Of a stretch of DNA of 33,888 bases, positions 31,876 to 33,888 are shown in pieces. A program made the translations under genes and the position numbers. Under the pieces are notes generated by a model that saw only the letters and a list, made by a program, of their open reading frames with translations, did not search any database and had not been told where the DNA came from. The DNA comes from Treponema sp. (GTDB lineage Bacteria > Spirochaetota > Spirochaetia > Treponematales > Breznakiellaceae), in contig JAISSH010000038.1 in NCBI GenBank assembly GCA_031273265.1, positions 1 through 33,888 of the forward strand, given 5' to 3'. Within the stretch, counting starts at the first letter, position 1, and each line of letters begins with the position of its first letter.

Positions 31876-32220
31876 ATGGCTGATGACATAATATACGTCA
31901 ATGTGGAAGAAGGCGTAAAGCGGGTTATGAATAATACGAAACTTTATGCGAAATTACTTGGCAAATTTAAGGACGACACGAATTTAAATGATGCGGAGTC
32001 CTTTCTGGAAGCCGGAGATATGGAAAAGGCTCAGGTTTCCATTCATACCCTAAAAGGTCTTGCCGCCAATTTGTCTCTTGTCGAGCTTTTCAAACAGACT
32101 CTGGAACTGGAAACCCAGATAAAAGCCAGATCGGTAAATCCGGATCAGCTTTCAATATTAAAGAAAGTTTATGATCAAACTATAGCGGAAACGGATAAGG
32201 TGATAGCGCAATATGGTTGA
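31876..32220 (+). CDS. HPt-domain phosphotransfer protein
   Basis: 114 residues, single four-helix HPt domain. The phosphorylatable histidine is His57 in SIHTLKGLAANLS, the conserved HxLKG motif. Carries a phosphoryl group between a sensor kinase and a response regulator in a phosphorelay. Ribosome site AGAGAGG precedes ATG. Its stop overlaps the next gene by eight bases, so the pair is translated together. Confidence 0.9.
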   Translation: MADDIIYVNVEEGVKRVMNNTKLYAKLLGKFKDDTNLNDAESFLEAGDMEKAQVSIHTLKGLAANLSLVELFKQTLELETQIKARSVNPDQLSILKKVYDQTIAETDKVIAQYG

Positions 32221-33268
32221 TAAAATTTCAACAGTTTTTGTCGTTGACGATGTCGATATGAACGTCATGATTCTCGAAGAAATTCTAAAGGACGATTACC
32301 ATGTCGTAACCGCCTTTAACGGCAAAGAAGCGCTGGAAAAGCTTAACAATTCAACCGAGCTTCCTAAACTCATTCTTCTTGATGTCATGATGCCCCAAAT
32401 GAACGGCAAGGAATTATTTGAATTTTTAAAAACCGACGAATCCTTCAGGAGAATCCCCGTTATTTTTATCACCGCGGAAAACGATTCCGAAACAGAACTT
32501 TTAGCCGCCGGCGCGGTGGATTTTATCAATAAACCGTTCCTGCCGGAAATTGTAAAACTGCGCGTTAAAAATCAGATAGAGTTGAAAAATTACAGCGACA
32601 GTCTTGAAGAAATGGTCGCGGAAAAAACCGCCGAAGCCACAAAGACGCTTGAAAGCGCGCTGCAGGGGCTTGCGAACGTAATTGAACACCGCGATTTGGA
32701 GTCTGGTGAGCATGTAAAGAGGACTCAGCTTTTTGTAAAGGCGCTGGTCGATCATCTTATAGAAACCGGATCTGTTTATGCCGAAGAGTTGTTAAAACTT
32801 CAACCCGATATAATTATGAAATCCATGGCGTTACATGACGTCGGTAAGATCGCAATTCCCGACAGAATCCTTCTTAAGCCCGGCAAGCTTACTCCCGAAG
32901 AATACGAAATAATGAAAACCCATACCACGCGGGGTAAGGAAATTATCGGCGAACTGGGCGATGTGAATTCTTCTCTCTATCTGAAACATTGCGAAGACAT
33001 CTGTTACGGTCACCATGAGCGCTGGGACGGCAAGGGCTATCCGCGCCAGCTCAAGGAAAACGAAATCCCACTGACCGCCCGTCTTGCGGCTCTTGCCGAT
33101 GTATATGACGCTCTGGTTTGCGCCCGCGTTTACAAAGCCGCCATGCCCTACGAAGAAGCGATGGGAATAATCATTGACGGAAGAGGAACCCAATTCGATC
33201 CTATTATCACCGACGCGGTAGTAGAGATTCAGGATCAATTCAAAGAAATAGCGCAAAAGTACCAATAA
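32213..33268 (+). CDS. Response regulator with HD-GYP (cyclic-di-GMP phosphodiesterase) output
   Basis: 351 residues. The REC domain (1-120) has phospho-acceptor Asp57 in LLDVMMP and Lys at INKPF. A short coiled coil (NYSDSLEEMVAEKTAEATKTLESAL) leads to an HD-GYP domain with all signature residues: EHRDLESGEHV, His208-Asp209 in HDVGKIAIPD, HHERWDGKGYP, LAALADVYDAL. RpfG-type enzymes of this kind hydrolyse cyclic-di-GMP. With the adjoining HPt protein it forms the two lower steps of a phosphorelay; the kinase is elsewhere. Confidence 0.94.
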   Translation: MVDKISTVFVVDDVDMNVMILEEILKDDYHVVTAFNGKEALEKLNNSTELPKLILLDVMMPQMNGKELFEFLKTDESFRRIPVIFITAENDSETELLAAGAVDFINKPFLPEIVKLRVKNQIELKNYSDSLEEMVAEKTAEATKTLESALQGLANVIEHRDLESGEHVKRTQLFVKALVDHLIETGSVYAEELLKLQPDIIMKSMALHDVGKIAIPDRILLKPGKLTPEEYEIMKTHTTRGKEIIGELGDVNSSLYLKHCEDICYGHHERWDGKGYPRQLKENEIPLTARLAALADVYDALVCARVYKAAMPYEEAMGIIIDGRGTQFDPIITDAVVEIQDQFKEIAQKYQ

Positions 33269-33269
33269 T

Positions 33270-33288
33270 TTGGAGATGGCGGGAGTCG
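33270..33288. repeat. Direct repeat of the ssrA 3' end (att-like site, distal copy)
   Basis: TTGGAGATGGCGGGAGTCG is identical to 33587-33605, which is the 3' end of the tmRNA gene. The copy starts one base after the HD-GYP gene's stop codon. It covers acceptor 3' strand, T-stem 3' strand and part of the T loop, the portion typically duplicated when integrases insert at tRNA-like genes. Confidence 0.85.
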
Positions 33289-33586
33289 CCTTCCAGTCGC
33301 AAAAGACCTCACACAAAACCACGTAAAATGTGGAGTTCGAGGATTCTCACGCAGAGGCGTCGTTTGCAAGCAAACAGAGGTACAAAGGACGCAGAGTCGT
33401 TGTTTGAAAAATCTTTGTATTACCTCTGAATTTATATGTAAGACAATTTTTGATGTAGAAATTTTAAATTCCCTATATCCTAGTCCATTGAAAATCATGA
33501 AAGTACGACAATAATATCAGAAACAACAACTTTGCGCCCTTTGCGTTCTTGGCGTCTTTGCGTGAACCTCTTTTTCTAGTAAAGTC
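33289..33586. mobile_element. Small gene-free insert between the ssrA direct repeats
   Basis: 298 bases between the two 19-base repeats, with no convincing coding sequence. It contains TTTGCG-type repeats in opposite orientations: 33347-33394 (CTCACGCAGAGGCG, ACAAAGGACGCAGAG) and 33531-33573 (CTTTGCGCCCTTTGCG, CGTCTTTGCGTGAAC), and GTTTGC-AA-GCAAAC near 33370. The middle is AT-rich. Best read as a remnant or minimal non-autonomous element inserted at the tmRNA gene; a chance combination is less likely. Confidence 0.5.
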
Positions 33587-33605
33587 TTGGAGATGGCGGG
33601 AGTCG
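33587..33605. repeat. Direct repeat of the ssrA 3' end (copy within ssrA)
   Basis: The copy that belongs to the functional tmRNA. Identical over 19 bases to 33270-33288, a spacing of 317 bases. Confidence 0.85.
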
Positions 33606-33888
33606 AACCCGCGTCCCAATACGCGAAACATAGACCTCTACAGATTTAGCCGTTTATTAAATTGTCGGGACAGGCATTGCTAAACGGCGCGCGTCCTGTC
33701 CGTATTCCGGGAAATCTCGCCATACCGTCTCCGGAAGCGGCGGCATAACCAGCTCTGATTGCGACGCGGAAGCTGTCCCTCAGAGCGGCGGGGCAGTTCC
33801 ACGCGGTTACGCAGCTAAGGCGTAATCGTAACTGTCGTAGTTGGCAGTTAAATTTTTGCCCAATCAGGAGATGGGCGCTCCATCTGCA
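33588..33888 (-). ncRNA. ssrA: tmRNA, 5' end outside the window
   Basis: The minus strand ends in the tRNA-like T arm GCGGG-TTCGACT-CCCGC and acceptor strand CATCTCC plus A, with no encoded CCA. The tag reading frame is 33845-33807, GCC AAC ... GCG TAA, giving ANYDSYDYALAA, ending in the Ala-Leu-Ala-Ala proteolysis signal and close to treponemal tags. tmRNA rescues stalled ribosomes by trans-translation with SmpB. About 301 bases are inside the window; the 5' tRNA-like half is missing because the window stops. Confidence 0.95.

Follow-up and report, generated by a model that had tools for sequence, protein, structure and literature searches.

Hairpin units that end in a copy of the adjoining tRNA 3' end in spirochaete genomes, and a probable remnant behind a Treponema tmRNA gene

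We describe a family of hairpin-forming units of about 200 nt that lie behind tRNA or tmRNA genes across Spirochaetia, have no gene of their own, and carry at their far end a copy of the 3' end of the gene that they follow. A repeat of the tmRNA 3' end in the window (the whole 33,888-nt stretch of Treponema sp. DNA that was analysed) is probably what is left of a dead member of this family and not an intact unit; this estimate covers the explanation as a whole, including the family, spread by template switching and a putative small RNA, the last two of which are also graded separately below. The window copy is assigned to the family because an exact 22-mer of family sequence is joined to the tmRNA copy and because intact units stand at the tmRNA gene in congeners.

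The duplicated tmRNA end in the window

The sequence TTGGAGATGGCGGGAGTCG occurs at 33270-33288 and again 317 bases away at 33587-33605, and comparison within the window finds the two copies identical at 19 of 19 positions. An exact 19-mer would recur by chance within a few hundred bases with odds of about 1e-9, and the 17-mer core has exact matches only at these two sites in the whole 2.0-Mb assembly. The repeat of the tmRNA end is real, and chance is not a serious option. The proximal copy (33587-33605, minus strand) is the genuine end of the tmRNA, running from C56 to one base past the discriminator base, and belongs to the 3' part of the ssrA gene (33587-33888, minus strand), which was identified with Rfam model RF00023 (103.1 bits, E 1.8e-39) and whose 5' part lies beyond the contig end. 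ARAGORN did not report the tmRNA gene in the window, presumably because it is truncated at the contig end. The distal copy (33270-33288, minus strand) corresponds to the right end of a hairpin unit and agrees with intact units in position and border. It begins one base after the stop codon of an HD-GYP response-regulator gene (32213-33268, plus strand, an open reading frame of 351 aa), which serves as a flanking marker outside the unit and the end of which lies near the tmRNA in several congeners. No convincing gene was found among the window's open reading frames between the two copies. The first-pass annotation had described a tmRNA 3' end duplicated around an insert without an integrase, and on both points, given the 19/19 identity, the RF00023 match and the lack of any open reading frame of note, we agree with it.

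Most of the insert is foreign to the unit. The surviving 3' end of the unit, TTTGCGACTGGAAGGCGACTCC (33282-33303, minus strand), overlaps the distal copy and is an exact 22-mer of family sequence, with 0 mismatches and 0 such matches expected in shuffles; the stretch 33271-33303 is 91% identical to an intact congener unit (E 2.4e-6). On the tmRNA strand, the sequence that adjoins the distal copy and lies outside the dispersed repeat described next is TTTGCGACTGGAAGGCGACTCCCGCCATCTCCA. About 33 nt of the unit thus remain, consisting of the 3' hairpin end and the tmRNA copy, with the left arm and the greater part of the body lost. The following stretch, 33304-33340, gave no convincing match and is perhaps, to judge from its position between the remnant and the dispersed repeat, the unit's body in a decayed state. 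Everything else in the unit has given way to a dispersed intergenic repeat (33341-33570, borders approximate) with the ends ACGCAGAGGCG...CTTTGCGTGAA. When the insert was used as query, this repeat (ACGCAGAGGCG / CTTTGCG ends) was found in more copies and many fragments in the same genome (contig C110, 13762-13946; C79, 6288-6380; C31, 7367-7419; and others), and in fragments in congeners. The TTTGCG motifs of the insert are part of the dispersed repeat, which is unrelated to the hairpin unit. In genome G033, a different repeat (GGCGCGCTACTCGGGCTAAAGCCC...) lies inside several unit bodies and lengthens them to about 250 nt (L130, 749-1002 and 1383-1635; L132, 614-866; L136, 471-722; L016, 2298-2553), which resembles the replacement seen in the window.

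The locus had been interpreted earlier as either the scar of an excised integrase island or a minimal element of 317 bases bounded by the 19-mers. An exact 19-nt repeat at a tmRNA 3' end does fit the att repeats of islands, and the insert shows a displaced fragment in the correct orientation, but it contains no integrase gene, which the Islander definition of a tRNA island requires (PMC4383910). We rejected a plain island scar on account of the intact units that occupy the same place in congeners, and the family 3' end beside the distal copy also speaks against the remains of an island. The insert as one element was likewise rejected, since most of it is a dispersed repeat that occurs at unrelated sites; the inverted TTTGCG repeats, earlier taken as a sign of a self-contained element, belong to that repeat and do not define an element ended by the 19-mers. 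Both forms of the earlier interpretation are therefore very improbable, although the notion of a short self-contained element survives to the extent that a hairpin unit of about 200 nt is involved.

Behind the tmRNA gene, congener Treponema MAGs have an intact unit, about 200 nt long, that closes with the family sequence seen in the window and a copy of the tmRNA 3' end. The annotation had set against its own reading the possibility that all relatives carry the same 317-base arrangement, and this is not the case: the tmRNA site holds intact units in several relatives, a triple array in G033, remnants in others and nothing in many. The window copy itself lies downstream of its host gene, on the same strand, and has the terminal sequence of the family joined to a repeat of that gene's 3' end; it lacks the full body and left arm, and the family covariance model (R1) did not report it at E<=5 in its own genome, nor in locus L012.

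Anatomy and distribution of the unit

Read in the sense of the tRNA, the order is tRNA, spacer, complementary left arm, a body of about 110 nt, and the copy of the tRNA 3' end. The spacer is about 61 nt long (56-67 nt in most first copies), A+T-rich and variable in sequence, with no clear positional consensus beyond A+T richness that would indicate a conserved promoter. A terminator-like hairpin lies between the tRNA and the unit at 10 of 61 loci, and at 19 of the 61 the spacer is duplicated too. The left arm is complementary to the 3' half of the T-stem and the T-loop of its own tRNA, TTC included. The body consists of a stem around two hairpins, the second with a CANGGANG loop, and then the hairpin CTGGAAG...ACAGGANGT...CTGGAAGG.

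The right end is a copy of the tRNA that begins at C56 and stops at the discriminator base, and it is exact at 49 of 68 loci. Over these 68 loci the mismatches amount to 33 of 1257 bases (2.6%) and fall both in the paired T-stem part and in the acceptor part, the latter being without a partner in the left arm in most units. The two T's before C56, which are invariant in tRNAs, were almost never copied at the 68 loci, so that the copy has a sharp upstream border. A few units (L076, L078) have a left arm that keeps one base misfitting the host tRNA and a right copy that fits exactly. A variant right end was seen behind tmRNA (L055, L016, L021, L022 and L032), where a small hairpin, for example TTGCCGCTTTCGCGGCACTG, splits the copy between T-stem and acceptor. 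Counted from the tRNA side, in regions fetched from three genomes that were chosen for holding units (the rate is therefore not genome-wide), the tRNA's own 3' end recurs downstream as an exact 15-nt copy in 31 of 50 tRNAs, compared to 0 upstream and 1.4 after the tails had been shuffled between the tRNAs.

With a single intact unit as query, 27 of 60 related genomes gave matches, most of them elsewhere than at the tmRNA, and ARAGORN found a tRNA or tmRNA gene at all but two of 29 fetched loci; both exceptions lie at contig ends, and one of them (L057) is a tmRNA at the same place as in L021, the other being L084. The covariance model R1 detects units in 49 of the 60 genomes of the relatives sample and, at E<=1e-7, in 82 of 393 genomes of the phylum, single-contig genomes included. 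Three genomes were searched in full and hold 20-25 units each. In these genomes a tRNA or tmRNA gene on the same strand precedes 59 of 65 units, and 45 of 138 tRNA and tmRNA genes, about a third, carry a unit. The six remaining units all belong to G022, and the four stronger ones, to which the check covered, each have a contig end no more than about 500 nt away. Units also occur in tandem arrays. In other genera and classes, which were not used for the model, the spacing is similar and the copies are mostly exact. The complete chromosome of Treponema ruminis RU1 (CP031518.1) is among the carriers by pattern search, with a partial unit behind tRNA-Pro, and R1 gives two partial or weak matches there. 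Besides the remnant in the window, the genome that the window comes from has an intact unit behind tRNA-Ala (contig C35) and an interrupted one (C114). About 700 nt behind the tmRNA in genome G020 (L038), we noticed the end of a gene like those of formylglycine-generating-enzyme-like variable proteins, followed by a possible template repeat, an arrangement that by eye is reminiscent of a diversity-generating retroelement.

Folding, putative function and spread

The folded structure of the unit is real. Compensatory changes occur in 31 of 34 pairs of the unit body. In the alignment of 107 units (A2), standard pairs fill 94.6% of the paired cells, compared to 65.1% in shuffles, and double changes number 961 against 291; this alignment was fitted to the model, and the size of the effect leans towards the model accordingly. 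When the structure is slid along the alignment, standard pairs fall to about 40%. RNAalifold applied to a MAFFT alignment of 25 units found compensatory changes in 28 of 34 pairs. G-U pairs are rare (91 of 3287 cells, or 2.8%, against 46 A-C) despite the many double changes, and the strand test of G-U against A-C, at 91 to 46, at most leans to the tRNA-sense strand. Such rarity is unusual for RNA and may reflect replacement of stems as blocks or pairing in (single-stranded) DNA.

At least two apical loops with GGA are present in 74 of 82 bodies, compared to about 22 of 82 when shuffled, and a CsrA gene was found in 5 of 5 genomes tested. The consensus of CsrA sites fits the ACAGGANGT and CANGGANG loops. 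Intact bodies might accordingly be kept as a putative small RNA that could, for example, bind CsrA through the GGA loops, a suggestion that we consider possible but somewhat doubtful. It is a lead, not a result, and caution is in order, as some units have a terminator in front of them and G-U pairs are rare.

In a rival explanation, the units would be permanent regulatory elements within tRNA transcripts, a role ascribed to RtT RNA in E. coli, inherited vertically and with ends kept matching the tRNA by selection on pairing. The strong covariation and the exact tRNA-end copies are compatible with this explanation, as is the small RNA, annotated rttR, that arises from the analogue in E. coli, and bodies that share a tRNA in different genomes show a weak excess of similarity (P 0.021; His 0.874, Glu 0.841). 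However, bodies at the same tRNA in different genomes, although sometimes as close as those for His and Glu, are often dissimilar (0.38-0.69), and 56 of 82 bodies have their nearest neighbour in another genome and at a different tRNA. Given the weak signal and these neighbours, vertical inheritance according to tRNA identity was rejected. Moreover, the copy retains its acceptor part, which has no partner in the left arm of most units, units are absent from most tRNAs and from many genomes, and some are preceded by terminators. We consider a fixed regulatory part quite unlikely.

The units seem instead to be gained at new tRNAs with their ends changing as a block, because bodies 84-90% alike are found behind different tRNAs with arms fitted to each. 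Examples are Arg and Trp within the single genome G022 (86.6%), tmRNA of G013 and Lys of G006 (87.7%), and Gly of G019 and Leu of G028 (86.6%). One way in which such gains could arise is movement of the units as tiny cassettes, in the form of circles of about 205 bp. A tyrosine recombinase, working in trans, would make the crossover within the T-loop, and the right copy would be the displaced tRNA end. A block of identity from the T-loop to the tRNA end together with a displaced fragment is what tRNA islands leave (PMC4383910). A T-loop crossover with a circle would explain both the sharp border and the displaced copy, and tandem arrays and patchy presence fit as well. Yet a circle that jumped to another tRNA would swap the host's acceptor end for the donor's, whereas similar bodies at different tRNAs have host-exact ends, and the complementary left arm is left unexplained. 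No recombinase gene was found in or beside the window copy in a search of the window, and searches of phages, plasmids and viral contigs, made with one pattern and a single unit, found no copies. Movement as circles appears unlikely to us.

We tentatively propose, from the end products, that units may reach a new tRNA by template switching during replication through the T-arm sequence that tRNAs share, a proposal to which we give appreciable but not preponderant weight. The strand copying a tRNA gene would fold back on its own T-arm, which would yield the complementary arm with GAA, would switch to an existing unit at the shared TCGAA and copy its body, and would then return to its own tRNA at CGANTCC, a T-arm sequence common to most tRNAs. 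As an outcome, the tRNA 3' end and the spacer behind it would each be present twice; later recombination between the direct repeats could produce tandem copies. Template switching predicts the C56 border, the duplicated spacer and a right copy derived from the host, all of which are seen, but the model was built on these observations and they do not test it. The near-constant spacing of +61 is unexplained by template switching. In its most comprehensive form, the proposal would be that of a mobile unit without genes, which refits its two ends to each new tRNA by hairpin-primed template switching or other copying, which has come to occupy tRNA genes in many spirochaetes and which encodes a putative CsrA-binding small RNA, with E. 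coli tyrT/RtT as an independent case; we think it rather unlikely that this combination holds in full.

Relation to known systems

Integrase islands in tRNA and tmRNA genes (Islander type) resemble the unit in that their far side carries a displaced copy of the end of the tRNA gene and that the border lies in the T-loop. The unit differs in its size of about 200 nt, the lack of an integrase, the complementary arm, the conserved structured body and the host-exact ends at different tRNAs. This carries a warning, as the tRNA-fragment repeats that are used to call genomic islands can stem from units without an integrase. REP/BIME and other palindromic intergenic repeats are, like the unit, short, dispersed, hairpin-forming and gene-less, but the unit is bound to tRNA 3' ends and has its ends fitted to each tRNA. 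CsrB/RsmZ-type CsrA-binding small RNAs resemble the unit in having several hairpin loops with GGA, including ACAGGANGT in the unit; unlike them, the spirochaete units are short, present in many copies and linked to tRNAs.

The closest known system is that of the 178-bp repeats behind E. coli tyrT, the source of RtT RNA (RF00391, rttR), which has its architecture in common with the spirochaete units: tRNA-Tyr is followed by about 60 nt, an arm (GGGGAAGGAT) that is complementary to the tRNA 3' end, a structured body and an exact AATCCTTCCCCCACCACCA. There is no match by sequence in either direction, and homology with RtT was rejected for this reason: RF00391 has matches in 0 of 60 genomes of the class, at its gathering threshold it reports none in L171, L128 and L016 and four in the E. 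coli locus (L179), and R1 does not match E. coli tyrT. No other known RNA family gave a match reaching threshold for the unit, and a search of the open-access literature (subscription papers lay outside it) found no report of such units in spirochaetes. By these comparisons the unit is built like RtT without being a member of RF00391, and the hairpin-unit family appears to be undescribed. A link between RtT-like sequences of enterobacteria and BIME repeats has been described (PMC2965389).

The tyrT repeats follow one another at 178-bp steps, also between two tRNA-Tyr genes, and thus form tandem copies as in spirochaetes. The E. coli copy includes the encoded CCA, whereas the spirochaete copy stops at the discriminator base, and Rfam places RtT at one E. 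coli locus here, whereas the spirochaete family occurs at many tRNAs per genome. What was a curiosity of E. coli, a repeat behind tyrT with the tRNA's own 3' end, thereby becomes a general phenomenon that involves about a third of the tRNA and tmRNA genes in the spirochaete genomes fully examined, and it raises the question of what copies the 3' end of a tRNA and its complement into an adjoining hairpin for so many different tRNAs.
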